Assembly: GCA_019637395.1 (NCBI GenBank)
Contig: JAHBVR010000010.1
Location: 186,001-250,000, forward strand
DNA from: Vulcanimicrobiota bacterium
Lineage (GTDB): Bacteria > Vulcanimicrobiota > Xenobia > Xenobiales > JADMJV01
Direction of reading: 5' to 3'
Length of the DNA: 64,000 nt
This document shows, one piece after another, positions 1 through 17,973 of this stretch. The position numbers and the translations under genes are program-made. Position 1 is the stretch's first letter. Each line of letters opens with the position of its first letter. The notes under the pieces were generated by a model. The model saw nothing but the letters and a program-made list of their open reading frames with translations, did no database searches and had not been told where the DNA came from.

Positions 1-95
1 ATGAGATTAAAGACATACTCAGGTGTGAGTTGTTCCTCCGGCACCCTGAGCATTTCCGTGACATTGTGAGAAAGACCGCTGTTCCGAGTTTCCAT
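1..95 (-). CDS. 5' end of unknown protein (runs off window)
   Basis: Only the first 31 codons are visible (METRNSGLSHNVTEM...). The start is convincing: a perfect AGGAGG (complement of 101-106) sits 5 bases before the ATG at 95. It is the most downstream visible gene of the minus-strand phage region. No domain can be recognised from 31 residues. Confidence 0.5.
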   Translation of the reverse strand, partial: METRNSGLSHNVTEMLRVPEEQLTPEYVFNL

Positions 96-289
96 GGCAA
101 CCTCCTGGCGAACTATTAGTCCACCGTCTTCACAATACCTGGTACACAAAATTTTTTAAAGTGAACACAGTCCCAGCAAGCTAAGGACCCGAATATCCCA
201 TCACCTTTGATTAATAAGTCCCGGACCAGCCAGAAACCCAAACAGATGCAGGCATTGGTAGAATCTATCTTGCCAATCTCAAATTCAGC

Positions 290-775
290 TTAGTTACCGC
301 TGCTGCCACCCTGAGAATACTCCACAACCAGCTTCACCACAGACTGGACGACGGGGCAGCAATTCTCGAAGGTGACCAGGTCAAGCACGTCAGAGCCCAA
401 GGCGCGGATGACATCGGCCAGCAGTGCGTGCACGAAACCCTGAGTAGCCATCTCCACCCCGGCGAAGTCAATGGTCAGCCGCTGGCCCGATGTGAGCGCC
501 GGCCGGACGGCATCCTCGCGGAGCTGGGCGGCCACTTCCTTGTTCTCAGCGAACTCGCCCGTAAAGCCGCGGACCGATATGAACACCGAGTTCATCTCTG
601 CAGCCAGCTGGCTGAATGGGACGGCCGGCTCCCCTGCCTCCTTAAACTCCTGGAGGCCTATATGCGCGTCGAGGCTGTCCTCCAGGTATTCCATCCGGTC
701 AAGGATTTGGGCCATCTTCTCGCGCAGGTTCGCGTTCTCGGCCTCCAGGGCGGCCAGTCGGTCCGTTACGTCCAT
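290..775 (-). CDS. STAS-like (DUF4325-type) domain protein with N-terminal coiled coil
   Basis: 161 residues. Residues 5-40 are a heptad-like coiled coil (DRLAALEAENANLREKMAQI). The C-terminal half (about 95-155) fits the small STAS-like DUF4325 fold: a beta strand with DFAGV, then a helix leading to a second strand (FENCC). In known families such domains sit in anti-anti-sigma or phage accessory proteins, often with an ATPase partner, which is not seen here. The start at 775 has only a weak ribosome site. It is separated from the tape-measure gene by an HTH gene on the other strand and by a terminator-like hairpin, so it is probably its own unit. The family call is pattern recognition only. 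Confidence 0.55.
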   Translation of the reverse strand: MDVTDRLAALEAENANLREKMAQILDRMEYLEDSLDAHIGLQEFKEAGEPAVPFSQLAAEMNSVFISVRGFTGEFAENKEVAAQLREDAVRPALTSGQRLTIDFAGVEMATQGFVHALLADVIRALGSDVLDLVTFENCCPVVQSVVKLVVEYSQGGSSGN

Positions 776-849
776 ATTGTCAATGTTACCAGGGGATACT
801 CAGGGAAAGCAAAGGTTCACAGGCACCTCCGTGGTAACTGGAAAAGAGC

Positions 850-869
850 CTCCCGGCTGCGACCGGGAG
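850..869 (-). terminator. Terminator-like hairpin
   Basis: CTCCCGG (850-856) and CCGGGAG (863-869) form a perfect 7-bp stem with a 6-base loop. On the minus strand the stem is followed by GCTCTTTTCC. It would stop leftward transcription before the STAS-like gene. With the hairpin at 982-1005 it is the only structure I see in the gap between 776 and 1094. Confidence 0.4.
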
Positions 870-981
870 ACTCAGGGTGTTATCCGCTGCTATCCTTTAA
901 TATGCCGGTTGGCTTATTAAAGGCTGAAGACAACTACGAGTACCAGTCGCAGGAACGTCTACATCGGGACTTCCTTCCGTG

Positions 982-1005
982 GGCCGGCAGGTGACACTGC
1001 CGGCC
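982..1005. repeat. GC-rich dispersed hairpin, copy 1
   Basis: GGCCGGCAG, six-base loop, CTGCCGGCC: a perfect 9-bp inverted repeat followed by TATGG. The same 9-bp arms occur at 44424-44447, again with a 6-base loop and followed by TACGG. One copy is inside the mobile element and one in the host chromosome, so a REP-like dispersed family is possible. Two copies are too few to be sure. Confidence 0.45.
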
Positions 1006-1094
1006 TATGGTTTTCACTGGAGGTTCTACTAGACAGCCCTGGGGAAGCTGACCGCTGGCAGGGTAGGTCAGCGGTGGCGGGCAATCGTCGAACG

Positions 1095-1319
1095 GTGAGC
1101 ATCCCGGCGGCCGCCAGGTCAAACAAGACAGTGCGATGCCTGCATATCCTGAAGCTGCTGGCGGAAGAGCCCTTGCACGTCTCCGAGCTGGCCATCCTGT
1201 TCGACGTGTCGGAGCGGGCCATCCAACGGGACATCCTGACACTGAAAGAGGCCGGGGCCGTGATCGATAGCAGCGGGCGGGGCTACCACCTGCGCGGCCG
1301 CTGCCGGATGCCGTTTTAG
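1095..1319 (+). CDS. Small HTH (DeoR/HTH_11-like) regulator
   Basis: 74 residues from GTG 1095, almost all a winged-helix unit: a helix (CLHILKLLAEEPLHVSELA), a recognition helix (FDVSERAIQRDILTLKEAG) and a wing (IDSSGRGYHLRG). This is the N-terminal HTH_11 type of DeoR/YafY regulators without their ligand domain. I chose GTG 1095 because the damaged paralogue at 9611 aligns from exactly that codon; a GTG at 1074 is the alternative. It lies alone on the plus strand between two minus-strand genes, so it could be a regulator of the element's late genes. That role is inferred. Confidence 0.6.
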   Translation: MSIPAAARSNKTVRCLHILKLLAEEPLHVSELAILFDVSERAIQRDILTLKEAGAVIDSSGRGYHLRGRCRMPF

Positions 1320-1335
1320 GACGGGCCCGGTCGCT

Positions 1336-1617
1336 CTACGGGTCTTCGGGTGGCGGAGTGTGGGTTGTGCGAGGAGCGTAGTAGCCGCCCGCACCGATCG
1401 CCGTGCGACCGTTGCCACACGGCATGGTGAGTAGAGAGACGCCTGTTGGGACTCGTCCTCCGACAACCCGCGGCACGTTGGCCGACCCCTGGCCGTTCAC
1501 GACGGCGCCTGTGCTCCCCTCGGTGCTTCCAAGCTTAGATGGAGCGCGGCGGCGACTGTCGTCCCTTTCGCTTGGGCGCTGGTCGTAAAGCATTTTCAGT
1601 TCGTCATTGAAAAGCAT
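1336..1617 (-). CDS. Small protein downstream of the tape-measure gene
   Basis: 93 residues, rich in Gly, Pro, Arg and Ser, with no recognised domain. It starts 6 bases after the tape-measure stop, and GGAG inside the end of that gene is placed to drive translation, so the two are probably co-translated. Small ORFs just after a tape-measure gene are common in tailed phages, but nothing in this sequence identifies the function. The low complexity keeps confidence moderate. Confidence 0.4.
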   Translation of the reverse strand: MLFNDELKMLYDQRPSERDDSRRRAPSKLGSTEGSTGAVVNGQGSANVPRVVGGRVPTGVSLLTMPCGNGRTAIGAGGYYAPRTTHTPPPEDP

Positions 1618-1623
1618 CTTTTA

Positions 1624-4600
1624 TCATACTCCGTATTTGAACTTGGCCTCACCGTGAGCCCGTTTGATAACCGTGATGACGGCATCTCTGAACCTGCTGT
1701 CACTGGCGCTGATCTGTGTGCCATTCACGGTGGCGTTGTAGTTGATCGTCTGACGGCCGCCCTGCCCCTGTTGTCCGCGCGTTCCCTGGGCACCCCTGGA
1801 TGCGCCCTCTTGCAGTGCTTCCTTCTTGGCCCTCTCGGCCTGGTTGATTTGGTCGCTCAGTTGCTGGGGCGGGGTGAAGTTCCGCCGAGCGTCGTTCCTG
1901 ATCTGCGAGAGCCGGGTCTCTGGGACTTCGGTTTTTGGCAGCCTGGTCGGCTGGCTATTCAACCTGGGGAAAAGGGTCGGGCGTTTGCGGACTGGAGCCT
2001 TTGTCATATCCAGGCTGAAGTCTAGCGAGGCGAGGTCTGCAAAAGCTTCCTCACCAGATAGAATCGGGGACCGCGAACCACCGATGCGGTTGGCGTTGTT
2101 CTTCCGCTTCTGCAGTTCCTGGGCTTCGGCAATGGTCTCCTGATTCATGAGAGCCTGCTTTTTCAGCGAGGCCTGCTTGGCGGCGTTGACCTCGTCCTGG
2201 CCGGCGTCGATCGCGGCCTGAAGCTCTTGGTCGATGATGGAAAGCCGCTTCGTCAGGGCTTGCTCGCGGGCGGCGGTAATCTGTCCCTCAACATCTTCCC
2301 CCGCGTCCTTGCGAATCTGTAGAATCTGGAGCTCCTGATCGAGCAGTCCGGCTTCCTGGCCAGCAATCTGGATTTGGGCCTGAGCCTTCTCTTGGGCGAT
2401 CTGCTTTTCAAGTCCCAGCTGCTGCCTGGTCAGGTCGTTGAGTGTGGACTTGGCCTGCTCGGCGCTGATGTCGCCGGCGTCGCGGGCGCGGTTCACCTGG
2501 TCGATACCGGCCACCACGGCGCTCAACTGCGCTTGACTACCTACCGAGTCGGCCACGTTGATCTGGACGTTATCCTTGATCGAGTCCAGCTTCTGTCGCT
2601 GCTTCTCTGCCGTGATTTGCTTTTCGAGAGCAATCTTCTGGCTGCTCAGGCTGTTGAGCTGGCTTTGGGCGGCCGCCTCATCCAACAGGCCGGCTTTGCG
2701 TGCGCGCTGAATTGCAAGGATGCCGTTCGAAACGGCTGACAGCTTCTGCTCCCCGGTGGTCGATTCACTGATAGCGGTCTGGATCGGCTGTATGATGCCC
2801 TCAAGGTTGTCCTTCAGCACCTTGCTATGCTCACGCTGCCGCTCAATCGCGTTGGAGGAGTTGAAGCGGTCCAGCTCAGCCTGCAACTCGGGAAACTGCT
2901 TCAGCAATGACTTGTTGGCTGAAGCCCACTTCTCGGTGTCCTTCTGCGCTTTCTCAAGCGCGGCGGAGACGCTCAGGCTCCCAGTTCCAGCCTGCGCATC
3001 TTGCACCAGTTGCCGGGAGGCGTCCAACTGTTTGCGCAGAGAAGCGCTCGCTTGCTCCGACAGCTTGGACTGGATCTGCTCGCGCAGCGCGGCCGCGCGT
3101 TCCAGGAGGGACACTTCTTCATCAGTGCCCTCCTTGGCGGCCTTCAACCTCTGCTGGGTGAAGTATAGCTCGTCATGCAGGTTAGTTTCGCCCAGCGCCT
3201 TGCGCCGGCGGAACGCCAGGTCTTGCGCGTCAACAACCTTCTTGGCGGCCTCCGCTTCCAGGTCGGCCTGCGATTTGACGAGTGCGTTGCGCTGCTGGAT
3301 CAACTGGATTTGGGCTTCAATGCCAGCACGTTCTGTCTCACGCAGGGCTGGATTCGCCAAGCGGGTGATCAGTTGGTCGAGGTTGTCGGTGCCGATTTTG
3401 CTCTTCTTGGAGTTTTCCTCGATTTGCTTGTTGACCGACTCCATGGCCACCGATAGCGCCTGGGTGGTTCCGACCTGGCGGGACAAATCTAAAAATTTGG
3501 ACAGCAGCGCAGAACTCGTCGCAGCTTTCTCCAGCGGTTTGTCGATCTCTTCATAGGCCTGCTTGCCCTTTTGGGCGACAGTTTGCGCCTGAAGCAAAGT
3601 AGCAACGAACTTCTGAGCAGAAGCGATCTGAGCATCCAGGTCGTCCTTATCTGCGATTTGGATGCCGCTATTTTCTTGCAGCTGGCTCTGGACCGTTCTG
3701 AAGCGTTCCGGGCTCCCCCGCTTGTTCTCGATGCTAAGCAGCGGTATGTCCCGGTTCAGTTCGTTGCGCGCTTCGGCAAGCGTCCTCAAACGCTCTTTGG
3801 CGTTGTTCGAGGAAACTCCGAGCTTTTTCAGTTCGTCATCCAGCTGCTTGGCTCCGATGCCAGCCTTAGCGAAAGCGTCGACGACCTGGTCGTTTGAGAG
3901 GCTGGCGAAGGCTGCGTTAATCTGGGCCATCTGCTGGCGGGCGCTGCCGACGATTTGGACGGTGACCCCGACCTGTTTGCCGGCATCGTTCAGGATGTTG
4001 ACCCCCTGCCGGAAGAAGCGGTTGGCGTCGGCGAATTCGTGGGACGAGTCGCGAATGCGGTCGCCCAGTTCGACGTAGCCCTTCTCCAGGTCGCTGATGG
4101 CCGACAGCGCTACGGTGCCCACCACTGCGGCTATAGCGCCCACACCGGAGGCAAAGGCCAGATTACCGGCAATGCCAGCGGCCATCCCCACGTTTAGCGA
4201 ACCGAATGCCGCCCCGGCCTTGGAAACCCCAACATTCAAGGTGCTTAGAGCGGCACTGGCCAGAGGAGCTTCTATCTCCAGGGCTTTCAGTTCGGCCACC
4301 GTGACGGCCAACTGAGACTGAAGCAGAGCCAGGCCGGCCAAGCTGCCCAGGGCGGCAGCCCCAACGCCCAGGATCACCGATGCGAGAGCGGTAGCACCTG
4401 CGGTTGCGACCAAGCCGGCCGCTGCGATTGCCTTTATCGGGGCAGGGATGGCGTTGGCCGCGCCGAGCAGCAGACCGAACCCCCGGGTAACGAGGGTGGC
4501 CATCGGGAGAAGCGTGCTTCCGAATTTGTTCGCCAGACTGGAGGCCTCGTCGCCCGTATTGCTCAGGGCGCCGGCGAGAGTCGCGCTCTGACGAGCGATT

Positions 4601-6126
4601 GCGTCTCCGAACCTGACGTTCACAAGCTTGATCAGGGCGTTGCGATTCGCTTCAATGTCTTTCCCCGCGTGGCTCAGGGTGCCAGCTACTTCGCCTTGGA
4701 CAGCCCCGAAGTCCAACAAGTCGCGGGTCGTAACGGCGTAAGAATTCCTGAGTTGCTCGAATCCTTCGGTCGATCCAGATGCGGCCTTTGCCAAAACAAT
4801 CGTTGCCTCTGGTAGCGACTTACCCAGGGCCGCCGCAAGGTTGGCTGCAACAGGCAGAAGATCTTCGGACTTCTGCTGGAAGCCTTCGAGGATAGCAGTG
4901 GCGTCGACCGCCCCCTGCACGTCAAACGGGGTCTTGGCGGCGAACGACGTTGCGAAGTCCAGCTTGTCCCTGGCGGCCGCGGCGGAGCGAGTCACCGAGG
5001 CCAACTTCTGCTCGAGCTGCTGAAATGAAGAAGCAACGGTGAGCACACCGGCAGCCGCGCCACCGAAGACTGCGGAGATACCTGCAAACCCCAGCGACAG
5101 GTTCTGGAGTATGTTCCCCACCTGCTGGGTGGAGCTGATGACTCCCTGGAGTCCTTTGACGGCGGACTCTGTCAGCCCAGCAGTCACGGACTTCAGGAGG
5201 GGCACCTGGTTGATAAGGTCCGCGTTGGACGCTTTCCACATCTGCAGCTTGGCGGCGATCTCGGCGAAGCCAGAAATCTGGGCGCCAGCTGGGGCGCGAA
5301 GCACTCCCGCCAGCTCCGCTTTAAATTGGGACAGGGCAATCTGTGCGGGCTGAATCGCGCCCTTCAGGCCCTGCTGAGCCGCCTGGCCGGTCTGCGCAAA
5401 CGCGGCCTGCAGACCCTTACTTTGAGCCAGGATGGAAGCGTTTTCCTTCTTGAACTGGCCCAGGGACTGCAGGGCCTGGTTGAAACCCTGCGCCTGCAGT
5501 GCGGGGGTCCCGAGTTGCCCAGATGCCGCAATTTGCTGGCGAATCTGGGCCAACTGCTGGCCAGCACTCCCCGCAATTTGGCGGAGGCCAGCGGACGCTA
5601 CCTGGCCGAGCCGGGTGTAAGAGGCCTGAAGCTGAGGAGAATCTCTCAGCAACTGCTGGTTGTTCCTCGCCCAGCGTGAAAGCTCGACGTTGACTTTAGC
5701 GAAGGCGGCCGCTCGGCTGTTGTCGTTCGCGGAAGAAACGTCCTGAATTCGGTCTTCCAGCCGATAAAGGCCCCTGCTCGCTGCCGGCACCCCGCTACTG
5801 GGGGAGTGGCCTCGGCTACCCGTGCTGTTTTCGGTTGGAGCCGGGGCGGGGGCGGGAAGCCTGGGAATTTGGAGCGGTGGAACCCTGAGCTTGCTGACTT
5901 GGGCGGCGAGTTCCGCGGCCTCCCGTTTGGCTCGAGCGAACTGGGCGGCAAGCCTGGCCACCTCCGCCTGCGCCAGCTTGAGCGGCGCAGTATCACCCGT
6001 TGCGGCCGCGACCGACTGGCTCTTCTTAAGAGTCTCGAGGCTATCCCGAACCTCTTTGTTCGTCTTGTCAAAACTGGCATCCCGCTTTGCCAGAAAGGCT
6101 ATGGTTACGTCGGTTGTGGCGGCCAC
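1624..6126 (-). CDS. Phage tail tape-measure-like protein
   Basis: 1500 residues from GTG 6126, with GAGG about 10 bases upstream. Tape-measure proteins set tail length and are packed in the tail tube. The evidence is great length, near-continuous helical and coiled-coil sequence rich in Ala, Gln and Lys (residues 40-110 and 680-1350), and hydrophobic stretches at about 335-365, 555-600 and 640-675. A TP901-type core is also visible at about 365-480, with ASSFQQLEQKL, then TPFDVQGAV and STEGFEQLRNSYAVTTRDLLDFG. The last 150 residues are Gln/Arg-rich. At roughly 0.15 nm per residue (known for the family) this would suit a tail of about 200 nm. It is odd that no other tail or head gene lies next to it in this window; they may lie left of position 1. 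Family call fairly sure. Confidence 0.82.
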   Translation of the reverse strand: MAATTDVTIAFLAKRDASFDKTNKEVRDSLETLKKSQSVAAATGDTAPLKLAQAEVARLAAQFARAKREAAELAAQVSKLRVPPLQIPRLPAPAPAPTENSTGSRGHSPSSGVPAASRGLYRLEDRIQDVSSANDNSRAAAFAKVNVELSRWARNNQQLLRDSPQLQASYTRLGQVASAGLRQIAGSAGQQLAQIRQQIAASGQLGTPALQAQGFNQALQSLGQFKKENASILAQSKGLQAAFAQTGQAAQQGLKGAIQPAQIALSQFKAELAGVLRAPAGAQISGFAEIAAKLQMWKASNADLINQVPLLKSVTAGLTESAVKGLQGVISSTQQVGNILQNLSLGFAGISAVFGGAAAGVLTVASSFQQLEQKLASVTRSAAAARDKLDFATSFAAKTPFDVQGAVDATAILEGFQQKSEDLLPVAANLAAALGKSLPEATIVLAKAASGSTEGFEQLRNSYAVTTRDLLDFGAVQGEVAGTLSHAGKDIEANRNALIKLVNVRFGDAIARQSATLAGALSNTGDEASSLANKFGSTLLPMATLVTRGFGLLLGAANAIPAPIKAIAAAGLVATAGATALASVILGVGAAALGSLAGLALLQSQLAVTVAELKALEIEAPLASAALSTLNVGVSKAGAAFGSLNVGMAAGIAGNLAFASGVGAIAAVVGTVALSAISDLEKGYVELGDRIRDSSHEFADANRFFRQGVNILNDAGKQVGVTVQIVGSARQQMAQINAAFASLSNDQVVDAFAKAGIGAKQLDDELKKLGVSSNNAKERLRTLAEARNELNRDIPLLSIENKRGSPERFRTVQSQLQENSGIQIADKDDLDAQIASAQKFVATLLQAQTVAQKGKQAYEEIDKPLEKAATSSALLSKFLDLSRQVGTTQALSVAMESVNKQIEENSKKSKIGTDNLDQLITRLANPALRETERAGIEAQIQLIQQRNALVKSQADLEAEAAKKVVDAQDLAFRRRKALGETNLHDELYFTQQRLKAAKEGTDEEVSLLERAAALREQIQSKLSEQASASLRKQLDASRQLVQDAQAGTGSLSVSAALEKAQKDTEKWASANKSLLKQFPELQAELDRFNSSNAIERQREHSKVLKDNLEGIIQPIQTAISESTTGEQKLSAVSNGILAIQRARKAGLLDEAAAQSQLNSLSSQKIALEKQITAEKQRQKLDSIKDNVQINVADSVGSQAQLSAVVAGIDQVNRARDAGDISAEQAKSTLNDLTRQQLGLEKQIAQEKAQAQIQIAGQEAGLLDQELQILQIRKDAGEDVEGQITAAREQALTKRLSIIDQELQAAIDAGQDEVNAAKQASLKKQALMNQETIAEAQELQKRKNNANRIGGSRSPILSGEEAFADLASLDFSLDMTKAPVRKRPTLFPRLNSQPTRLPKTEVPETRLSQIRNDARRNFTPPQQLSDQINQAERAKKEALQEGASRGAQGTRGQQGQGGRQTINYNATVNGTQISASDSRFRDAVITVIKRAHGEAKFKYGV

Positions 6127-6170
6127 TACCGTGGACCTCGCTCATCCGCAGGCGGGAAAAAACGGGGCAA

Positions 6171-6201
6171 GCCTTCCGAGCCGATACCAGACTCGGAAGG
6201 C
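6171..6201 (-). terminator. Hairpin with T-rich tail upstream of the tape-measure gene
   Basis: GCCTTCCGAG (6171-6180) and CTCGGAAGGC (6192-6201) form a perfect 10-bp stem with an 11-base loop. On the minus strand it is followed about 8 bases later by GTTTTTTCC. It would separate the 6523-7914 cassette from the tape-measure gene. Confidence 0.5.
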
Positions 6202-6416
6202 CTGAAACCAGGAGGAACCTTCCCATTACCCACGCCCTGATTCTGCGGCCGCGCTCCCGGTGGGAAATAGACGGGATGAAACGGTTAGAATTGTAATTAA
6301 ACGGTGAATTACCCTTAGGGGACCTTCACCTGGGTCTGAGCGGACACCAGGCCACCTACCACAGCATCCAGTCGCTTACGATGGAAGCGGACCTTACGCA
6401 CTGGCCTCAAATCGCA

Positions 6417-6454
6417 TTCGTGACGTCACGAAATGGTGACCACTTGGCTAAAGG
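6417..6454 (+). promoter_or_regulatory. 16-bp palindrome plus leader motif, copy 1
   Basis: TTCGTGACGTCACGAA (6417-6432) is a perfect palindrome. Five bases later comes GACCACTTGGCTAAAGG (6438-6454), which matches GGCCAAGTGGTCAAAGG at 8019 and GGCCACGTGGCTAAAGG at 8558. The other two copies precede genes by 53-54 bases. Here the motif precedes AGGGGAA and the ATG of a 19-codon ORF. This and the 6171-6201 hairpin are what I see in the 6127-6522 gap. Confidence 0.5.
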
Positions 6455-6484
6455 AAATCGCTCCTCAAGGTTGCCTCAGGGGAA

Positions 6485-6544
6485 ATGGCAAACTCGCCAG
6501 GGATCCAGGCATGGGCCGAAGGCTACTCCGCAGAGACCCCGTGA
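6485..6544 (+). CDS. Mini-ORF, possibly the stump of a leader-motif gene
   Basis: 19 residues (MANSPGIQAWAEGYSAETP) after a good AGGGG ribosome site. The start context AGGGGAA-ATGGCAAAC resembles that of the 8629 gene (AAGGGGAAAGAAAA-ATGGCAAAC), and both have the 17-bp leader motif upstream. Its end overlaps the tail of the minus-strand 6523-7440 gene by 22 bases. It may be a real short peptide, or the remnant of a longer gene cut when the minus-strand cassette arrived. Confidence 0.3.
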   Translation: MANSPGIQAWAEGYSAETP

Positions 6545-7440
6545 ATCGCTCGGTGCATGCTCTGCAAATGGCGGCTTTGCTTGCTGTCGCGCAGAGTGAC
6601 GGGTAGGCGACCGGAAATATCCAAGTAGTCAACCATGTGGTCGCCTGGGGGTATGGGCGACTCGCGAACAATAACGGTCAGGGCACCTCCAAAGCCGCAC
6701 CATTCGAAGCCATAGGTGCCAGAGGGGAAGCCTTGGTGTGCCAGGTATTGGGACTCAGGGGGAAAGAATCCCCGGGATGGGTGCCCGCAGGACTCAACCT
6801 GCAACCCCAGCGGGCAAAAAGTAGCCGGCCCCGGGTTCCGAGCCAACAACATCCGTCTAAGCCTGTCGCTGACTTTTTCGGAAAGCTGGACCTTTCGAAA
6901 TACTGGTCCAACTGCAAGCGCCGAGCGCCAGATCGACAGTAGGCAAAACAACTTAAACTTTGCGTAGTCCACCTCAATGTAAGGGGGCAAATCAAACCGG
7001 GCCCCTCCCAAGACGCTTTCGTTGAACCGGATCCACTTGGAAAGCAAGCCTCTACAGTAAGTCTCGATTTGACTGAAACTGGAGTCGCATTCCCGACACA
7101 TCAGTGGTTCAGGATGGCTGCTTTGTTCCCTGACTTCTTTGGGGCCGGACCAATCCTTGAACGCCACATACTGGCCGTTTTGACGAACAAACTGCCAGAA
7201 TGAAGTGGGGAGAATGTGCGATTCGATCGGTGGCCGGTCCTCATGCTGACACAGCCGGCAGCGACTGGATCGCGCCGACTCCAGCTTGCGGTCCGCCTGC
7301 CTTTCGCGCTTTACTTTTTTCTCGCTCACGGTAACTATTTTCAAGGTGTGCTGAAAAAAGTCAACTCCGAAAACGGTCGACGAAACAGTCGCATCAATAC
7401 GGCCAAGGTTTAGGCCGTCGACCAGGCCGAGTGCGAACAA
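6523..7440 (-). CDS. HNH-like zinc protein (C-x2-C ... SHILP ... C-x2-C)
   Basis: Up to 305 residues. The core at about 60-125 reads CRLC, then ESHILPTSF, then LMCRECDSSFSQIE: two Cys pairs around a Ser-His-Ile-Leu-Pro signature. This layout recurs in uncharacterised HNH/treble-clef nuclease-like proteins of accessory islands. The remaining 180 residues carry no family I recognise. The true start is unclear. ATG 7440 lies inside the preceding gene, and in-frame TTG and GTG codons (at LKIVTVSEKK) would give about 265-270 residues with no better ribosome site. It is the last gene of a three-gene overlapping set (7914 to 6523), so it is probably translated together with the two small proteins before it. 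A nuclease role is inference. Confidence 0.55.
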   Translation of the reverse strand: MFALGLVDGLNLGRIDATVSSTVFGVDFFQHTLKIVTVSEKKVKRERQADRKLESARSSRCRLCQHEDRPPIESHILPTSFWQFVRQNGQYVAFKDWSGPKEVREQSSHPEPLMCRECDSSFSQIETYCRGLLSKWIRFNESVLGGARFDLPPYIEVDYAKFKLFCLLSIWRSALAVGPVFRKVQLSEKVSDRLRRMLLARNPGPATFCPLGLQVESCGHPSRGFFPPESQYLAHQGFPSGTYGFEWCGFGGALTVIVRESPIPPGDHMVDYLDISGRLPVTLRDSKQSRHLQSMHRAIHGVSAE

Positions 7441-7606
7441 TCTCGGCTGCCCTCCTCCAGGCCTCCAATACCTCCGCTAGATCCTCGTCCTTGTAGCGCT
7501 TCAGGTCAACCTTGTAGAGGTCTTCTACGAGGTTGACTGTGAGAAGCGCCCTGTCTTGCGAGTCTCGGAATTCCCGTGAATTCTTGGTGTAGCTTCGTTC
7601 CGTCAC
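7394..7606 (-). CDS. Small unknown protein, middle gene of cassette
   Basis: 70 residues from GTG 7606 (VTERSYTKNSREFRDSQDRA...). The GTG overlaps the TGA of the preceding gene as GTGA, the mark of translational coupling. A longer in-frame reading to 7708 would sit almost wholly inside the preceding gene, so I reject it. The sequence has a helical, charged middle (VEDLYKVDLKRYKDEDLAEVLEAWRRAAEI, described only by its composition: acidic/basic helix) and a basic Pro-rich end. No family recognised. Its place between a 103-residue protein and the HNH-like protein suggests a shared function. Confidence 0.5.
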   Translation of the reverse strand: MTERSYTKNSREFRDSQDRALLTVNLVEDLYKVDLKRYKDEDLAEVLEAWRRAAEIVRTRPGRRPKPWPY

Positions 7607-7914
7607 AGTCGCGCGCTCCAAGTGATTTCCCGACCTCGGTATTGACGGTTGCCGACATGGAAGGCTAGAACCGTGTGGTGGCCGCCCTGGCGGATCACGG
7701 CCCGCCAAAAGTGGAGCATCGACGGGAAGACTTCATCCAACATTTGCTTTGCATCGTCGTCGTTCTCGATGTCCTTACTCCACAAGTCAAAGACGGAACA
7801 ATCAACACAAAGCGTCAACTGGATTTGTGGGTTTGCGGAAGGGAGAATGCAGGGGCGAAAGAGATGACCTTGGTGAAAAACGGTGGGAAGAATTCGCTCG
7901 ACGGGCTTGAGCAT
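7603..7914 (-). CDS. Unknown protein, first gene of cassette
   Basis: 103 residues starting MLKPVERILPTVFHQGHLFR. It has alternating beta-like segments (QIQLTLCVDCSVFDLW; HHTVLAFHVGNRQY) around an acidic helix (ENDDDAKQMLDEVFPSMLHF), which suggests a small globular alpha/beta protein. No family is recognised. It opens the minus-strand cassette. The 174 bases between it and the divergent gene at 8089 hold leader motif copy 2. Confidence 0.5.
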   Translation of the reverse strand: MLKPVERILPTVFHQGHLFRPCILPSANPQIQLTLCVDCSVFDLWSKDIENDDDAKQMLDEVFPSMLHFWRAVIRQGGHHTVLAFHVGNRQYRGREITWSARL

Positions 7915-8018
7915 AGCAAAAGTGCCTCTCAGTGAATTTTCGCCCGTTCAGATTCTACTTTTCCGCGAGTAGGTTGAAGTTCCTTCAGTCACGACCTACG
8001 GGCAAATTGGCTAACGTG

Positions 8019-8035
8019 GCCAAGTGGTCAAAGGC
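8019..8035 (+). promoter_or_regulatory. Leader motif, copy 2
   Basis: GGCCAAGTGGTCAAAGG, 53 bases before the start at 8089. It aligns without gaps to copies at 6438 and 8558. Just after it, CGTGC/GCACG (8036-8040, 8049-8053) can pair. An operator or a leader-RNA element is possible. Confidence 0.5.
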
Positions 8036-8088
8036 GTGCCGACCAGCGGCACGAATCAGGCAAAAAAACTAGATTCGGAGCTGCAGCC

Positions 8089-8520
8089 ATGACTGACGGG
8101 AGCACATCACACTTACTTCAGGCCTACCGGGACCATTTCGGGGGCAATTCGATTTCACAGATCCCTCACTCGATCCAGGAGGCCCTCAGAGGCGACAAGC
8201 TGATCGACGGACCTGGCCAACGGCCTAGACTGACCTGGAAGGGTGTTGAATTTGTGGAGCAGAGCTACGGCAATGACCCTATCGTCCAAGAGGTCCAAGC
8301 GACAAGAAAAAGGCTCCTGAAGCTAGCGCTCGACTTGGGAAAGGACTCTCACGATGGTCGCTTTGACGTCGCTCAGATTATGCAAACTGCAGGCCTGAGC
8401 CGGGAGGTTGGGTTGGCGCACCTTATGGATAGTCCGCTATTCAGCGGCCGTTTCGGCACCCAAAAGTTGCCGACCCACTGTATGACACTCACCAACGCAG
8501 GCCGCCGGCTAGCTCAGTAG
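8089..8520 (+). CDS. Unknown protein, possibly two winged-helix units
   Basis: 143 residues. Two segments end in a pattern typical of the wing of winged-helix domains: RPRLTWKGVEFVEQSY (about 45-60) and HCMTLTNAGRRLAQ (C-terminus). Each follows a helical stretch, so a tandem wHTH protein is plausible, though I cannot name a family. It shares the 17-bp leader motif with the gene at 8629. It may be a regulator within the element. The ribosome site is weak (GGAG about 10 bases upstream). Confidence 0.5.
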   Translation: MTDGSTSHLLQAYRDHFGGNSISQIPHSIQEALRGDKLIDGPGQRPRLTWKGVEFVEQSYGNDPIVQEVQATRKRLLKLALDLGKDSHDGRFDVAQIMQTAGLSREVGLAHLMDSPLFSGRFGTQKLPTHCMTLTNAGRRLAQ

Positions 8521-8557
8521 CTACAGCCCGTATACGCAACGAGCGTTTCGTAAACTT

Positions 8558-8574
8558 GGCCACGTGGCTAAAGG
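8558..8574 (+). promoter_or_regulatory. Leader motif, copy 3
   Basis: GGCCACGTGGCTAAAGG, 54 bases before the ATG at 8629. GCCACGTGGC inside it is a perfect 10-bp palindrome, the most symmetrical of the three copies. Confidence 0.5.
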
Positions 8575-8628
8575 AGAGCAGGGTCTAGGCCTTAAAGCCG
8601 GAGCCAACGATTCTAAGGGGAAAGAAAA

Positions 8629-9015
8629 ATGGCAAACGAGCAACCTGCAGATGCCCAATCGACGTTTGAGGACCACGAGCGACATGGGTTTCAAGTCCAC
8701 AATGAACAGGAATTCATTCGCTTCCTGAATCGCACCCTACGATGGTTCAGCAACCCACCGGCACCAGCCGAAGCCGATCCGCGATTCAATCTGGCAAGCA
8801 TCGGAGACTATGGTGGCAATTTCGGTCCGGACATGGAAGTGAAGATTCTCTTCCCCGTGCCGGTAGAAGGTCAATGCTGGGTCTTTAAGTGCGAAACGAA
8901 TCTATGGAAAGAGTTGACGGATCGTTACTTAGTGTGGAACCCACAACTGGGATACTCTCCGTACCGGCTTAAGTCTGATTTCCCGAGCATTCCTTACGGG
9001 GAAGCCGGAGCTTAA
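8629..9015 (+). CDS. Unknown accessory protein
   Basis: 128 residues, after AAGGGGAAAG, a good ribosome site. Acidic and aromatic, with beta-like segments (EVKILFPVPVEGQCWVFKC; DRYLVWNPQLGYSPYRL), no signal peptide or membrane segment. No family recognised. It ends 2 bases before the 3' end of a convergent damaged gene. With 8089 it forms the pair controlled by the leader motif. Confidence 0.5.
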   Translation: MANEQPADAQSTFEDHERHGFQVHNEQEFIRFLNRTLRWFSNPPAPAEADPRFNLASIGDYGGNFGPDMEVKILFPVPVEGQCWVFKCETNLWKELTDRYLVWNPQLGYSPYRLKSDFPSIPYGEAGA

Positions 9016-9017
9016 CT

Positions 9018-9214
9018 TCACCAAGGCTCAAAAGGCGCCGTCGAAAACGGCTCGTAAAGGCCGATACGCTCGCTTGAAACCAAGGTGAGGTCGGGCTCCC
9101 AGCTGACGTAGCGGTTATGGAGCGCAACCACTTCAGACCGGCCAGGCTCTTCCGGCGCTTGTCGTAGGCCGCAATGTAGAGGTCGTCGCCCAAGACCACT
9201 TCCCACCTGGTCAC
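9018..9214 (-). pseudogene. Frameshifted unknown gene
   Basis: Coding-like sequence switches frame. From GTG 9214 it reads (M)TRWEVVLGDDLYIAAYDKRR up to about 9120. The plausible continuation (VALHNRYVSWEPDLTLVSSE, ending FEPW and a stop at 9018) lies in another frame. Read through in one frame, either version degrades into Ser/Arg-rich nonsense. One indel near 9115-9125 would restore about 65 residues. This is a decayed gene or a base-calling error. It starts 8 bases after the stop of the gene at 9223. Confidence 0.4.
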
Positions 9215-9222
9215 CCGGCAAC

Positions 9223-9477
9223 TCAGCCGGTCACGGAAAAACGCCCGATTTGCGGGCGGCTGGCCCTGGATGCAGCCGACCAGTCGTTGCTGTTGTGAGC
9301 TTCCGAGGACAGATCGCTAACCTTGCTAGCCATCAGCGCCTGGACCTTGCGTGGATCGCGGCCAGCGACTGGCTTGCACGCCGCCCGTGCTGGTGGTCGG
9401 AGGGTCTCAAAAACCGCGGCGCTGACGTCCGTCAGGACTGTGCGGGCCAGCTGGATGCGTTCGCTCAGGGTCATCAT
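9223..9477 (-). CDS. Small unknown protein
   Basis: 84 residues, MMTLSERIQLARTVLTDVSA..., with a helical N-terminus and a polar tail. It directly precedes the frameshifted gene on the same strand. No domain and no strong ribosome site are seen, so it may itself be a decayed fragment. The 133 bases between it and the HTH pseudogene at 9611 show nothing I recognise. Confidence 0.35.
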   Translation of the reverse strand: MMTLSERIQLARTVLTDVSAAVFETLRPPARAACKPVAGRDPRKVQALMASKVSDLSSEAHNSNDWSAASRASRPQIGRFSVTG

Positions 9478-9610
9478 CCAGGTCGTTCACCACAGGCATG
9501 CCGCACCCGCTTGGCTGGTGGTGTTCGTGTAGTTACTATTGACACGAACAAGGTTCTGACGACCCAACCCAGCAGGTGACTCCAGGTTAGGTCATCAAAT
9601 CCATTTAACC

Positions 9611-9818
9611 ATGCGCATTCCCGAGGCCGCCAAGACGAACAAGATCGTCCGCTGCCTGTGGGTGCTCAAACTACTTGCTGAGGAGCAGCTGCACGTCAGT
9701 GAGCTGGCCATCCTCTGACGTGTCGGAGCGCGCGATCGAGCGGGACGTTGTCACTCTGCTAGAGGCCGGAGCCCTCATCGAGGCCACACCGCGAGGCTAC
9801 CGGCTCCGCGGTCGCTGA
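9611..9818 (+). pseudogene. Frameshifted copy of the HTH gene at 1095
   Basis: It aligns with 1095-1319 along nearly its whole length: MRIPEAAKTNKIVRCLWVLK matches MSIPAAARSNKTVRCLHILK. Both continue KLLAEE.LHVSELAIL and, after the break, DVSERAI.RD..TL.EAGA. At the break the intact copy reads CTGTTCGACGTG and this one CTCTGACGTG, a 2-base loss that creates an in-frame TGA. A second reading frame then carries the rest to RGYRLRGR-stop. It is therefore a diverged duplicate, now broken. Confidence 0.75.
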
Positions 9819-9896
9819 TGCTCCCATTACAATTGGCGCCAGCAGCTAAAGAGGTGCCACCCCTTCAACTGCTGGCAGATCAGCCGGCGCGTGGTT

Positions 9897-10376
9897 TCAT
9901 TTGCGCCGGCGCGGCTTGCCCCACCACGAGAACGTGACAAAGGGCCCGCCGAAATCAGGAGCGGGGAGAGATCCGGCACCGTCCCGCCAGGTCTTCATTG
10001 ACTGCCGCTGATTGTTATCGACCGTCAGGCGCAAAACCATCTGCACATGTCGCACCTTCAAGTCGCATTCCCAGCGCAGTTCAGTGCTCACAGCAGGCAC
10101 CCATGGGAGGGTCTTGTGTCGGGCGTCCATGACGCACTGGAGCCCCGGCAGTACGACGCGGGCAGAAGGGCCGTTTACCTCAAACTCCAGATCGTCTTTG
10201 AGAAACTCCGGCACGCGCAGTTCGAGCGAGCAGCCGTGAGCATCGGCTGCGGCCGCCATCAAGCCGTCCGGAGTGATGCTCAGACAGTCCTCCGGCTCGA
10301 GAACTCCCGACCAGTGTGCCAGGAGATACCCCAGGCTACGCTGGTCGGGGTCGTGTGCCGTGTGGATGACAGGCAT
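9897..10376 (-). CDS. Unknown phage protein
   Basis: 159 residues from ATG 10376, 2 bases after the stop of the preceding gene (a longer reading to 10526 lies inside that gene). It is beta-rich (CSLELRVPEFL; LEFEVNGPSARVVLPG; LRWECDLKVRHVQMVLRLTV) and acidic, with a basic end (WGKPRRRK). The shape would suit a small structural phage protein, but I recognise no family. It is the last gene of the minus-strand operon running from 18.2 kb. Confidence 0.5.
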   Translation of the reverse strand: MPVIHTAHDPDQRSLGYLLAHWSGVLEPEDCLSITPDGLMAAAADAHGCSLELRVPEFLKDDLEFEVNGPSARVVLPGLQCVMDARHKTLPWVPAVSTELRWECDLKVRHVQMVLRLTVDNNQRQSMKTWRDGAGSLPAPDFGGPFVTFSWWGKPRRRK

Positions 10377-10378
10377 GC

Positions 10379-10870
10379 CTACCAGCCCGCCATGGTCGAA
10401 GTGGCTTCGGCAGGGTAAAGGCTCGCGGCCAGGGCCGACCAGTCGAGGTGATTGGGGGTCCCCCTCGGTCCAGCCGGCGTGTTGCGCCAAGCCTCGGTGG
10501 CCACAATCCTCTGCTGGAGGTCCCATCCGGTTTTCCCACCCAGCGTGAAAAGGATGTACTCTGCAGCCTTCTCAGCGGAAGGGGTGAGCTCCGCTTGGCG
10601 CTGGTTGTAAGGGTCCACGTTGTAGTTGCTCTGGGCCACCAGGTCGACGGCCTTGAGGTGCGTGCCGTCCGCATCCCCCCCAGCCTCCCGGATCCGGATG
10701 CCGGTTTCCGTCCGTTCGATTCGCTCTTCGAAGGCCGGTCGGGAGAACTGGGAAATGTGGTAGGCCTGGATGTGGGCCAACAGCAACTGGACCTGCATCA
10801 GAGTCGGCGGGGTGCCGGCTCCTACCAGGCGGTTGATGACGTGGGTTCTGATTTGATTCAGTTGTGACAT
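10379..10870 (-). CDS. Unknown phage protein
   Basis: 163 residues, MSQLNQIRTHVINRLVGAGT... A helical N-terminal half is followed by a segment resembling a lysozyme- or structural-like globular region (SNYNVDPYNQRQAELTPSAE; AEYILFTLGGKTGW), not enough for a family. It is coupled to 9897-10376. There is no signal peptide, so an intracellular or virion role is likely. Function unknown. Confidence 0.5.
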   Translation of the reverse strand: MSQLNQIRTHVINRLVGAGTPPTLMQVQLLLAHIQAYHISQFSRPAFEERIERTETGIRIREAGGDADGTHLKAVDLVAQSNYNVDPYNQRQAELTPSAEKAAEYILFTLGGKTGWDLQQRIVATEAWRNTPAGPRGTPNHLDWSALAASLYPAEATSTMAGW

Positions 10871-10930
10871 GGTTGGGTCTCCGTTTCATTCGATGGTTTA
10901 GGTTCATTCAGCGGCCACTGTCGGCCAAAT

Positions 10931-11503
10931 TTAGCGGTTGTTGCGGGCCTGGGCAGCAGCTTTACCAGCCTCGTAGTCCGCCTGCTGGCGAGCCGCAGCC
11001 TGGCCAGCAGCGTGCACTTCTTGACGGGTTCGTGCCGAAAAATCCGCGCGCTGATGGCGCTCCAGGATGTCCCCGACTTGGGCGATCACGGCCGGGTCGC
11101 CAAACTCCATTGCTTCGCGAAGTAGGTCATTGCTGGCGAAACGGATGGCTGGTGGGACGGGGTTGGCACCCGCGCTCAGTTGCGCCCTGAGCTCAACGAG
11201 CTTCGCCTGCATGGCGGTGACCGCGTCATTCTTGCCTTTGCGCACGGCCACCATGCAGGCGTTGACCGCATCCGCCATCTGCTGAATGAGAGGCTGGTGG
11301 CGGGCCCAGTCTTCGCTGCTGCCTGGCTCTTCGGGGTTCGGTCGCGGCGATTCGACCAGGGCGACAAAGACCTGGTCCCATGCGTCGCTAATTGCTGTAG
11401 CGCAGCCACCCAGGGTTGGGTCCGCTTTGCAGCCATCCCTCAGCCTTGCGGCCTCCCAGATCGCAGTCACGATGCTTGCGTTGGTATCATTCGTAGGTTT
11501 CAT
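10931..11503 (-). CDS. Unknown helical phage protein
   Basis: 190 residues from ATG 11503, chosen because AAGGAG sits about 9 bases upstream; the longer frame to 11590 lies inside the preceding gene. It is mostly helical, rich in Ala, Gln and Arg, and ends in a long helix (ARTRQEVHAAGQAAARQQAD). It overlaps the preceding gene by 17 bases. No family recognised. A scaffold-like or structural role is possible but unproven. Confidence 0.55.
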   Translation of the reverse strand: MKPTNDTNASIVTAIWEAARLRDGCKADPTLGGCATAISDAWDQVFVALVESPRPNPEEPGSSEDWARHQPLIQQMADAVNACMVAVRKGKNDAVTAMQAKLVELRAQLSAGANPVPPAIRFASNDLLREAMEFGDPAVIAQVGDILERHQRADFSARTRQEVHAAGQAAARQQADYEAGKAAAQARNNR

Positions 11504-11801
11504 GCTCTTGTTCTCCTTCAATTTCTGAGTCTTGGTTGGCCAAGTAATAGGCGTCTGCGCACTCACTCCAGCTGATGCCGCAGCGGCCACACCGCGGACA
11601 GAGCAGGTCTTTCATTGCGGACTCAAACGCCACGGAATCCGCGCCGAATACGGCCGCCCAAATCCAATGCCATTGCTCAAGGCTGGCGTCAGAAGAGGCT
11701 GTGGCTTCCGCGCTCTTTTTCTGCCGGCAAGCCGGGCAGGGCGCAGCCCCCCGGGTCTTGACGATTTTCTCGAGCCGAGCGATGCGGGCGGCGTAACTCA
11801 C
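11487..11801 (-). CDS. Zinc-ribbon protein
   Basis: 104 residues from GTG 11801, which overlaps the preceding stop as GTGA. Two Cys pairs (CPAC at about 22-25, CPRC-x2-C at about 68-74) suggest a zinc-binding fold. Between them lies an aromatic helix (LEQWHWIWAAVFGAD). Small zinc proteins recur in this operon (also 13155 and 16689). Function unknown. Confidence 0.55.
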   Translation of the reverse strand: MSYAARIARLEKIVKTRGAAPCPACRQKKSAEATASSDASLEQWHWIWAAVFGADSVAFESAMKDLLCPRCGRCGISWSECADAYYLANQDSEIEGEQEHETYE

Positions 11802-12265
11802 TCGGGTTCTTCCGCTCCTTGCTGTTCGATGATTTTCTCAAGGGCTGCGATCCGGCTCTCCATTACCAGGTCGCTGCGATAGCGACTGGCGAAATCGAGG
11901 AAGATTTTGCCAGCGGCGACCCGGGCACGTTCGTCGTTCCCGTTGCGGGCGATCTCGGCGAGGATGTCGGCCATCTCGGCCGCCTCGCTTGCAATCTTGT
12001 TGGCAACCTGGTCGACGACCGCGCGCTTGGCTATTCCCAGTTCATCTCGCAGTTCTGGGGTTTCAAGCCAGCGATAGACCGTCGACCGAGCGACACCGCA
12101 GGCTTCCGCTACTTTGTCGACAGTCTGGCCACTGAGTAGCATCGTGATAACCTCGGGGCTGCGCGCGGTCATTTTGCTGCTGCCTCGCTTGCTCTTGGTA
12201 GATTGTCCCGCCTCGTCGCTACTCGTCGCGGCTTTCGGCTTGGTTGCTACTGCCTTCCTAGCCAC
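11798..12265 (-). CDS. HTH protein, terminase-small-subunit-like
   Basis: 155 residues. After a basic Ser/Lys-rich tail (1-35), a homeodomain-like HTH reads VITMLLSGQTVDKVAEACGVARSTVYRWLE in outline: a helix, a turn at ACGVARST, and a recognition helix. A long helical part follows (VVDQVANKIASEAAEM) and a coiled tail. This layout resembles phage terminase small subunits and phBC6A51-type HTH proteins that bind packaging sites. No large terminase is next to it, so it may instead be a regulator. GTG start, overlapping both neighbours. Confidence 0.55.
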   Translation of the reverse strand: MARKAVATKPKAATSSDEAGQSTKSKRGSSKMTARSPEVITMLLSGQTVDKVAEACGVARSTVYRWLETPELRDELGIAKRAVVDQVANKIASEAAEMADILAEIARNGNDERARVAAGKIFLDFASRYRSDLVMESRIAALEKIIEQQGAEEPE

Positions 12266-12620
12266 AGCTTCGGCCTCGTTTCGGTGAGGTTAGGAGTGCA
12301 GCCAGCGGCGCTTGCCATGCTATTAGAACGGTCAGTTCCATCAACGATACCGCAGCGGGCTCGCCGTAGTAGAGCCCGCCGTTTCGCACCTCGAGGTGAA
12401 TAGGCGCTTTGCCCAACTCCTTGAGGATGGACTTGGCTTTGGCTACGTGGGTTCGGTCAGCGGGCTGAAACTTTGGCTGCCAGCCGTGGCCGAACCCGAG
12501 CAGCAAGCCAACGGCGGCTAAGTGGGCGACATCGTCTGGTCCAGGGACCGGCGTCAGTGCGTGAGCAATGGTGGGGCTACCCATCCGCGCCCCCATAATG
12601 GAGGAGCGTTCGGCGGCCAT
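12258..12620 (-). CDS. Unknown phage protein
   Basis: 120 residues from ATG 12620. The start is set by a TAATG overlap with the preceding stop; the longer frame to 12701 is inside that gene. Hydrophobic segments (HLAAVGLLLGFGHG; LMELTVLIAWQAPLAALL) could be buried helices or one weak membrane helix. No family recognised. Confidence 0.5.
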   Translation of the reverse strand: MAAERSSIMGARMGSPTIAHALTPVPGPDDVAHLAAVGLLLGFGHGWQPKFQPADRTHVAKAKSILKELGKAPIHLEVRNGGLYYGEPAAVSLMELTVLIAWQAPLAALLTSPKRGRSCG

Positions 12621-13165
12621 TACTTGCCCCTCGCTTTCTTGACTTTGCCGCTTACCGGAGGTGGAGGCTTGAGCGGGCCATCGTGCATCGAGAGTTGCCA
12701 CTGGGCCTCAACCAATACATCGGTTTTGGGCGTCCAGCCATTCTTGAAAACGTGCTCGAGGGTGGACTTGTGAAAGTAGCGCACGATGCTTCTGCCTTTG
12801 ATGAATTCCATCACGCCGTCGCCGTAGTAGGGGCAAGCCGTATGGTGCTGGCGCACATACTTGAGAGCAAGGCGACTCAAGGCAACGGCCTCGCGCGATG
12901 GCCGGGACTTGCCGTGATGGCTGGCCAGCCAGTCGCCTGCGGTCAAATACCCCAGTGCCGTTGCGCGAGAGTGCTTAGGTAGGCTCCATTTACTATCAAG
13001 GAGGTCCGTTTGCCGGCGGAGGTCGGCTATTGCCGTGCTCACCCATTGTGGGGCAGTCAGGCCACCTTCTCGTAGTCCGTCTAAGACACCGTGAATTAGG
13101 TCTTGCACTTGACCCAGCGCGCGGTCGCGCAGGGTTAGCTGGAATTTTACTTCGTCATTGGTCAT
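12620..13165 (-). CDS. Unknown phage protein
   Basis: 181 residues, MTNDEVKFQLTLRDRALGQV... Helical and mildly basic, ending in KVKKARGK. A segment with CPYYGDGVMEFIKGRSIVRY may bind a ligand, but no motif is decisive. It overlaps the gene before it by 11 bases and the one after by 1. Part of the early or middle operon. Confidence 0.5.
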   Translation of the reverse strand: MTNDEVKFQLTLRDRALGQVQDLIHGVLDGLREGGLTAPQWVSTAIADLRRQTDLLDSKWSLPKHSRATALGYLTAGDWLASHHGKSRPSREAVALSRLALKYVRQHHTACPYYGDGVMEFIKGRSIVRYFHKSTLEHVFKNGWTPKTDVLVEAQWQLSMHDGPLKPPPPVSGKVKKARGK

Positions 13166-13439
13166 CGGGTTCGTGTCCTTTCAAATCGTTGTTTTTGGGC
13201 TCAACCATGATGGGTTGAGAGAAGCCTAGTTCTGCGATGACTGCGGGGCAGGGATGTAGCCTGGCCGACAGGCACCGCAGCACCGACTTAAGCACCCAGG
13301 TCTCGCCATCCGGCGAACTGCGGTAGATCTCGTGTCGGGCATTGGCCCTACAGGTCGGGCACTGCACAGTCGCTTGTTGGTGGGCGGGGGTGGTCTTGAT
13401 CCGCTTGGGCGGGCTGATGGGCTGTCGTGGCGGGCTCAT
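13155..13439 (-). CDS. Small Cys-containing (zinc-ribbon-like) protein
   Basis: 94 residues. CPTC (27-30) and later single Cys residues (LRCLSA, HPCPA) could form a zinc site. The N-terminus is basic and Pro-rich (PPRQPISPPKRIKTTP). ATGA overlap with the HTH gene upstream. No function can be given. Confidence 0.5.
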   Translation of the reverse strand: MSPPRQPISPPKRIKTTPAHQQATVQCPTCRANARHEIYRSSPDGETWVLKSVLRCLSARLHPCPAVIAELGFSQPIMVEPKNNDLKGHEPDDQ

Positions 13440-13633
13440 GCGAACAAGTCTCCCTGTTCCGGTGCTAGCAAGGCGGAGCCGTAGAGTTTGCGCAATGCCT
13501 CGGCCTCGGTCGGACGCGGTAGGTAGACCTCGCCTTCCAGCGCTCGGAGGTTGGCGGCGGATATGCCCAGCTTTTTCGCAGCCTCGGCGAGAGTGAGCTT
13601 GGAGGCCTCGCGGGCCTTCTGCAGGACGCTCAT
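13436..13633 (-). CDS. Xre-type HTH protein
   Basis: 65 residues from ATG 13633, in a TGATG overlap with the primase-like gene. It is a compact Cro/CI-type HTH: LQKAREASKLTLAEAAKKLG, then ISAANLRALEG, then an aliphatic C-terminus. Cro-like proteins of this size in phage operons set the lysis-lysogeny or copy-control switch. Here it is co-translated with the replication gene, which suggests feedback on that operon (inference). Confidence 0.65.
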   Translation of the reverse strand: MSVLQKAREASKLTLAEAAKKLGISAANLRALEGEVYLPRPTEAEALRKLYGSALLAPEQGDLFA

Positions 13634-16380: not shown

Positions 16381-16553
16381 CAGGCCCCCATCCAAGGCAA
16401 AGCCCAGGAGATAGCCGGCGCGGGGCCCAGGTCGGGCCAGTGATAGGCTGGCGATGAGGTCGGGCGAGGCCGCGAAGCGACCTTACATAGAGCGGCTTCA
16501 AAGACCTGAGAAATTTGTTCTGGTGAGAGCTTGCGCCTGGGGGGCGCAGCCAT
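16380..16553 (-). CDS. Small basic leader protein of the replication gene
   Basis: 57 residues, MAAPPRRKLSPEQISQVFEA..., starting at ATG 16553 and ending in a TGATG overlap with the primase-like gene, so it probably couples that gene's translation. The ATG lies 5 bases from a perfect inverted repeat (16558-16577). The C-terminal half (RPRPTSSPAYHWPDLGPAP) is Pro-rich. No family recognised. Confidence 0.4.
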   Translation of the reverse strand: MAAPPRRKLSPEQISQVFEAALCKVASRPRPTSSPAYHWPDLGPAPAISWALPWMGA

Positions 16554-16557
16554 GCTA

Positions 16558-16577
16558 CAATTGACCTTAGTCAATTG
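16558..16577. promoter_or_regulatory. Palindromic operator candidate
   Basis: CAATTGAC-CTTA-GTCAATTG: a perfect 8-bp inverted repeat with a 4-base spacer, just upstream of the ATG at 16553. The half-site GTCAATTG recurs at 18122-18129 near the start of the excisionase-like gene, and CTTAGTCAA recurs in another inverted repeat at 18299-18313. This suggests one repressor acting at several sites in the element. Confidence 0.5.
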
Positions 16578-16688
16578 GTTTTTGTGAAGGTCGCTGTTCG
16601 AACCAGCGGCCTTCTGTCTTTTGTGGGTCATTGGTTTTTGCTGTCCTTTCGATCGATCAGGGTGTTTTTGGCAAGAGCAAGGCTCGGG

Positions 16689-17149: not shown

Positions 17150-17244
17150 CTGCAACTCCTCTATGTCGTTTCCGCAGGGCGGTGACTAGAGTGTGCGGTT
17201 GGTAGCCTGGTGCGGAAAAGACGCGCCAGAATGCGATAAAACGG

Positions 17245-17970: not shown

Positions 17971-17973
17971 AAA

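Follow-up and report, generated by a model that had tools for sequence, protein, structure and literature searches.

HNH enzymes are defined by a catalytic histidine together with asparagine or histidine at the next two positions of the motif, the last of which stands just after the second C-x2-C, and they usually have a metal ligand in the residue before the catalytic histidine. A putative zinc protein encoded within the window described here (the whole 64,000 nt stretch of a Vulcanimicrobiota contig that was analysed) shares with the HNH superfamily, and with Pfam family HNH_5 (PF14279), the order C-x2-C ... H-x2-P ... C-x2-C and a weak profile resemblance, but it and its relatives depart from that superfamily in having serine before the catalytic histidine, an acid in place of Asn/His after the second C-x2-C, an extra invariant acid, a W-R motif, and zinc cysteines that are dispensable in five of 28 aligned members. 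Three PHROG families, all function-unknown, belong to the same sequence family, with matches that span residues 56–200 (phrog_19960, E-value 1.3e-10; phrog_26326, 5.7e-6; phrog_7075, 0.0035), although the relatives found here lie mostly in chromosomes and plasmids and not in named phages. As with the accessory genes of BREX and type II restriction–modification (RM) systems, some relatives directly adjoin such operons, but most do not, and no known accessory family in PADLOC matches the zinc protein. The element that carries the gene resembles phage satellites and prophages in having a tyrosine integrase at a tRNA gene, a DUF3987 primase-type protein, repressor-type regulators and one tape-measure gene; unlike prophages, this element and two related ones have no large-terminase match, and neither portal nor capsid was found among ten unassigned proteins of the window's element that were scanned singly.

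The carrying element

The 52-bp repeat at the right end of the element (Table 1) recurs inside the tRNA-SeC gene, where its left copy begins at C2:179579 of the host genome (G000), and the window thus begins inside a 26.3-kb element. The initial annotation placed the locus in a phage element, and this is right in so far as it is a mobile element with a phage tail gene, a 1500-aa protein encoded at 1624–6126 having 27 % identity to the tape-measure proteins of Geobacillus phages, but no large terminase, portal or capsid was recognised, and judged by its gene content the element is not recognisable as a complete prophage. Large-terminase (phrog_2) matches elsewhere in the host genome are on contigs C5, C7 and C14, with none in C2:179579–205886.

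Homologous tape-measure proteins are encoded in two more elements of related genomes, one at tRNA-Thr (G004:C69, 17.7 kb) and one at tRNA-Met (G005:C10, 18.3 kb), both bounded by 53–55-bp repeats and both without a large-terminase match; the other genes of these two are represented by ORF lists that were partly scanned. All three elements (17.7–26.3 kb) carry an integrase gene, a primase-type gene and a tape-measure gene, and have the look of satellites or of some new kind of element derived from phages. No tape-measure-only satellite is named in the titles and abstracts consulted, among which subscription papers and preprints were few. For the window's cargo ORFs no counterpart was found in related elements L013 and L014 (the element records being window positions 1–19886, L013/L131 and L014/L111/L132).

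Some other products of the window's element are noted here for completeness. An HTH protein (11798–12265) resembles terminase small subunits (phrog_2538, E-value 2.2e-12), in an element with no recognised large terminase. The left part of the element encodes a ClpP-like serine protease of the SDH type (C2:185028–185912, equivalent to L012:17028–17912; phrog_11747, E-value 3.4e-83) with a distant likeness to head maturation proteases. A STAS-like coiled-coil protein is predicted at 290–775, a Pfam DUF4325 match having been put on this ORF by eye. Two plus-strand orphan ORFs in the cargo region (8089–8520 and 8629–9015) have no Pfam, PHROG, NCBIfam or PADLOC match.

Table 1. Features of the element and of the minus-strand cargo ORFs, in window coordinates (residue numbers refer to the 268-aa form; counts are from the 28-member alignment)
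Feature	Position	Strand	Basis or remark
Integrative element, 26.3 kb (G000:C2:179579-205886), part in window	1..19886		52-bp direct repeat
Cargo region, tape-measure gene to ORF 9897-10526 (three minus-strand and two plus-strand ORFs)	6130..9896		
Zinc-site protein ORF, 305 aa (TTG 7440) or 268 aa (GTG 7329)	6523..7440	-	ORF map
W134-R135 motif	6925..6930	-	W134 26/28, R135 28/28
E89, always acidic	7063..7065	-	E 20/28, D 8/28
Second C-x2-C (C78, C81) and acidic D82	7084..7098	-	C78 and C81 each 23/28
SHILP motif (S37-P41)	7207..7221	-	S37 and H38 28/28, P41 27/28
First C-x2-C (C24, C27)	7249..7260	-	C24 28/28, C27 23/28
Middle small ORF, 70 aa, GTG 7606; orphan, possible gene	7394..7606	-	ORF map
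First small ORF, 103 aa, ATG 7914; orphan, possible gene	7603..7914	-	ORF map
DUF3987 primase-type protein	13633..16395		
Tyrosine integrase	18577..19773		
Right attachment-site repeat, copy of tRNA-SeC 3' part	19835..19886		52-bp repeat

The three minus-strand reading frames

The locus was originally described as a three-gene cassette overlapping head to tail amid plus-strand accessory genes. All three ORFs are present on the minus strand in the ORF map, and the first and middle ORFs do overlap, by the 4 nt of a GTGA; the middle and zinc ORFs overlap (by 47 nt) only if the latter starts at TTG 7440. The plus-strand surroundings hold for the upstream side, where the two orphan ORFs lie, but the downstream neighbour is the tape-measure gene, which is itself on the minus strand. 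Purine-rich, Shine–Dalgarno-like sequences precede the first small ORF (GAGAGG at 7930–7925, 10 nt before the ATG) and the middle one (GGAG at 7619–7616, 9 nt before the GTG). For the zinc ORF, TTG 7440 is favoured by the Shine–Dalgarno evidence, a strong GGAGGAGGG at 7458–7450 lying 9 nt upstream, and GTG 7329, which has no Shine–Dalgarno sequence and would leave a gap of 64 nt to the middle ORF, is favoured by the N-termini of the relatives, which begin a few residues ahead of the first cysteine.

The expectation by chance was taken from minus-strand ORF lengths in 500 dinucleotide shuffles of positions 6300–8299. An ORF of at least 103 aa was present in 387 shuffles and one of at least 70 aa in 499, while at least 268 aa was reached in a single shuffle; a chain of three overlapping ORFs, each of at least 60 aa, arose in 36. 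Of the three, only the zinc ORF exceeds in length what chance yields; on these counts it can be called a gene with high confidence, and the two small ORFs possible genes. A codon model whose training set was 13 long ORFs from the window is uninformative at this locus, where it does not separate coding from non-coding sequence: the three ORFs all score near zero, and an antisense ORF at 7675–7935 scores the same as the first small ORF. Promoter and terminator scans of 6100–9300 gave numbers close to those for shuffled sequence.

That the two small products resemble nothing known, as the initial annotation put it, agrees with every set searched. The first matches no family in Pfam, PHROGs, NCBIfam or PADLOC and has no relative in 57 other genomes or in the phage records, plasmid records and viral contigs, and its AlphaFold model is of low confidence (pLDDT 49) and unusable. 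The middle ORF has no Pfam, NCBIfam or PADLOC match and no relative in phage records or viral contigs, its only matches, all sub-threshold, being ARMET_C (E-value 0.11) and an Lsr2-like PHROG (E-value 0.046). PADLOC returned no family at E≤1 for any of the three ORFs or for their two plus-strand neighbours. In the zinc-family loci fetched for comparison no ORF matches either small ORF at E≤5, the window's own copies excepted, and both are absent from all 27 distinct, non-redundant loci compared. The idea that the three genes stay together elsewhere thus fails: with no relative of either small ORF in any set searched, the cassette is not, on these comparisons, a conserved multi-gene defence system, and the small ORFs are at most local genes translationally coupled to the zinc gene.

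The zinc-protein family

The window protein has no Pfam family at E≤1 and no NCBIfam family, but it does belong to phrog_19960, for which a reciprocal search of the genome returned the same gene (E-value 2.5e-10). The possibility that it matches a housekeeping family was set aside, no such match having appeared in Pfam, NCBIfam or PADLOC. The gene is present in a single copy in its own genome and was not found in the four same-genus genomes searched. A 15-row profile found the family in eight of 388 related genomes, the window's genome counted, and a search built around another centre found it in 12 of 386, with five genomes common to both sets; one relative within the host's own phylum carries the label Candidatus Eremiobacterota. 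Plasmid-borne members are found in Agrobacterium, Exiguobacterium, Lysinibacillus, Cytobacillus, Pseudoalteromonas, a Rickettsiales endosymbiont and haloarchaea, and one member is in an Acinetobacter phage with others in viral contigs. With the window protein as query none of 50,697 phage records was matched, and each of two relatives as query matched one. Single-protein scans with the zinc protein found no relative in genome contigs, viral contigs or phages; the relatives came only from plasmids, from alignments, from whole-genome searches and from a degenerate DNA pattern. That pattern matched 36 stretches, of which only some encode the family by profile match, the rest being dropped as chance. 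Plasmid matches were fetched for three of 13 in one set (H4, H8 and H15, the last without annotation) and five of 10 in another (H16, H17, H20, H21 and H25). In genome G478 the match is fragmentary and interrupted by five stop codons. No such family is named in the titles and abstracts consulted, which took in few subscription papers or preprints. The family is widespread but patchy and undescribed, and its members occur as lone genes in bacteria, on archaeal plasmids and in viral contigs.

The C-x2-C / SHILP / C-x2-C layout noted originally is real, and the first catalytic histidine of HNH proteins has an equivalent in H38, which lies in an H-x2-P strand after the first C-x2-C and, like C24, is invariant. 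The description of the protein as HNH-like finds further support in sub-threshold HNH_5 matches in five of the 28 relatives (best E-value 0.0055) and in an hhalign comparison of the family N-terminus with 25 HNH_5 proteins of the same phylum, which scored 14.8 (E-value 0.0069, probability only 2.4 %) against at most 7.2 for 20 column-permuted profiles. However, neither the window protein nor any relative scores above the cut-off of a curated HNH profile, and at the third HNH position, residue 82, all 28 members have an acid (E in 26 and D in two, the window protein among the latter) in place of Asn or His. Since the canonical third residue is absent, we do not file the protein as HNH; it is better described as HNH-like, not HNH proper.

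The model of the zinc protein is weak (pLDDT 58.8, pTM 0.62, with low confidence past residue 176). Where the beta-beta-alpha metal fold of an HNH nuclease might lie, about residues 35–106, it shows a helix and short strands, and it also has a long helical part. Searches with it by Foldseek and VIA-align gave no credible relative and no match to a PDB entry or solved nuclease fold, the look-alikes being helical only, with Z≤3.2 or E≥3.3. When the 28-member profile was run against PDB sequences, a single match at chance level came back.

In addition to the residues in Table 1, F128 is present in 26 of the 28 members and position 131 is serine in 26, the window protein having leucine there. C27, C78 and C81 are lost together in the same five members (L018, L019, L020, L026 and L082), all of which retain H38, E82, W134 and R135. 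Since H38, the two acids and R135 are invariant even where the zinc cysteines are gone, an active site fits better than a structural zinc fold. The pattern points to an HNH-like scaffold that bears an enzyme site, one that in some members may have outlived its zinc knuckle.

Genes beside the relatives

Several relatives lie close to defence genes. In a genome of the host's own bacterial family (G005) the relative is divergent from, and 52 nt away from, a BrxE-like ORF that is followed by BrxA, BrxB and BrxC, and in G264 it is 28 nt before an N6/N4 methyltransferase gene and a TdeIII endonuclease gene, with AbiEi/AbiEii 1.4 kb upstream. The Exiguobacterium relative is 37 nt after the C5 (cytosine) methyltransferase gene of an AlwI RM locus, an LmuB-like (Lamassu-like) ATPase gene lies about 3 kb from the Haloplanus relative, and within 5 kb of the Agrobacterium relative there are a restriction endonuclease and a SIR2-like protein (E-value 3.6e-5, just under the cut-off). 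A weak SIR2_2 match (E-value 0.0042, below the cut-off) is directly upstream of the relative in G493, ParE and BrnT toxins are encoded near those in G363 and G471, and G476 has just an AAA_15 ATPase gene, past an unrelated gene. The surroundings of the relatives in G118, G301, G305 (a short contig), G414 and G429 showed no RM, BREX or toxin gene. Among nine annotated records, an RM, methyltransferase or Lamassu-like gene lies within 5 kb in four (Agrobacterium, Haloplanus, phage ABMM1 and Exiguobacterium) and an antitoxin-type gene in one (Halanaeroarchaeum), the other four (Megaera, Lysinibacillus, Cytobacillus and Pseudoalteromonas Bsw20308) having no such gene. The window's own element has no recognised defence gene.

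The proximity to RM genes was scored with three markers (PF01555, PF04313 and PF02384, to which BREX is external) in 13 genomes, a set without G478 and the window's own genome. A marker lies within 8 kb in three of the 13, against 0.39 expected (P = 0.006, at a distance chosen after seeing the data), within 5 kb in one (P = 0.23, not significant) and within 15 kb in three (P = 0.026). The RM proximity of the family is suggestive. The proposal that this is a defence module is thus sustained in so far as relatives lie beside defence genes, but not for the three genes as a unit; for the family, a tie to defence is possible.

Possible functions of the zinc protein

The zinc gene is a real and probably functional cargo gene of an undescribed family. 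Our preferred reading, held tentatively and with rather less than even confidence, is that it encodes a lone cargo effector, probably nuclease-like, that acts in conflict between mobile elements. The protein would combine an N-terminal HNH-like zinc scaffold with the residue set S-H ... E/D ... E/D ... W-R and would act as a metal-dependent phosphodiesterase or nuclease, with H38 as candidate general base and the acids at positions 82 and 89 as possible metal ligands; its target would be nucleic acid from phages or mobile elements that compete with the carrier. As a defence gene it is a candidate that is plausible but unproven.

The most serious competitor, which we regard as unlikely though deserving of real weight, is a non-catalytic or DNA-binding zinc protein, such as one that regulates the element or neighbouring defence genes. 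The zinc knuckle and the long helical part of the model would suit such a role, as would the replacement of the usual metal ligand by S37, and the divergent position of the relative 52 nt from the BREX operon in G005 is a common placement for a regulator; what argues against it is the invariance of H38, the two acids and R135 even where the zinc cysteines have been lost. It is distinctly unlikely that the three ORFs form a genuine unit peculiar to this locus, such as a toxin and two small partner proteins: the GTGA overlap and the Shine–Dalgarno-like sequences before 7914, 7606 and 7440 have a spacing that suits translational coupling, but no relative of either small ORF turned up in the sets searched, the zinc gene's relatives stand without such partners, and ORFs of their lengths (387–499 of 500) and three-ORF chains (36 of 500) arise in shuffled sequence.

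A free-standing HNH homing endonuclease would account for the HNH-like N-terminus, the location in a mobile element and the occurrence as a single gene. We consider it improbable, however, given the scarcity in phage records (one of 50,697 for each of the two relatives used as query and none for the window protein) and the siting of the loci between ordinary genes of chromosomes and plasmids, where no intron or split gene was noted. The idea that the gene is a neutral passenger, or decaying and without current function, is very improbable: its genome has just this one copy and the four same-genus genomes searched have none, but the ORF is full-length, keeps all the conserved residues and is of a length seen in one of 500 shuffles.

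A bolder form of the effector reading, to which we give little credence as a whole, would make the family an undescribed class of metal-dependent nucleic-acid enzymes derived from an HNH-type zinc scaffold, with the triad changed to H ... E/D ... E/D ... R and one branch zinc-free, that serves as a one-gene anti-phage effector swapped among BREX and RM islands, plasmids and, here, a satellite-like element with a tape-measure gene as its sole phage tail gene.

The carrier may prove to be the more unusual observation, a tRNA-integrated tape-measure element with no recognised head or packaging genes being present in three related genomes. The zinc protein is at present a well-defined candidate, not a demonstrated system, from a family for which no Pfam or NCBIfam model scored above its cut-off here. 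If it is a defence effector, a short single gene shared by bacteria and archaea would offer a testable anti-phage candidate, and the zinc-free branch would show a way in which an HNH-type site can be rebuilt.
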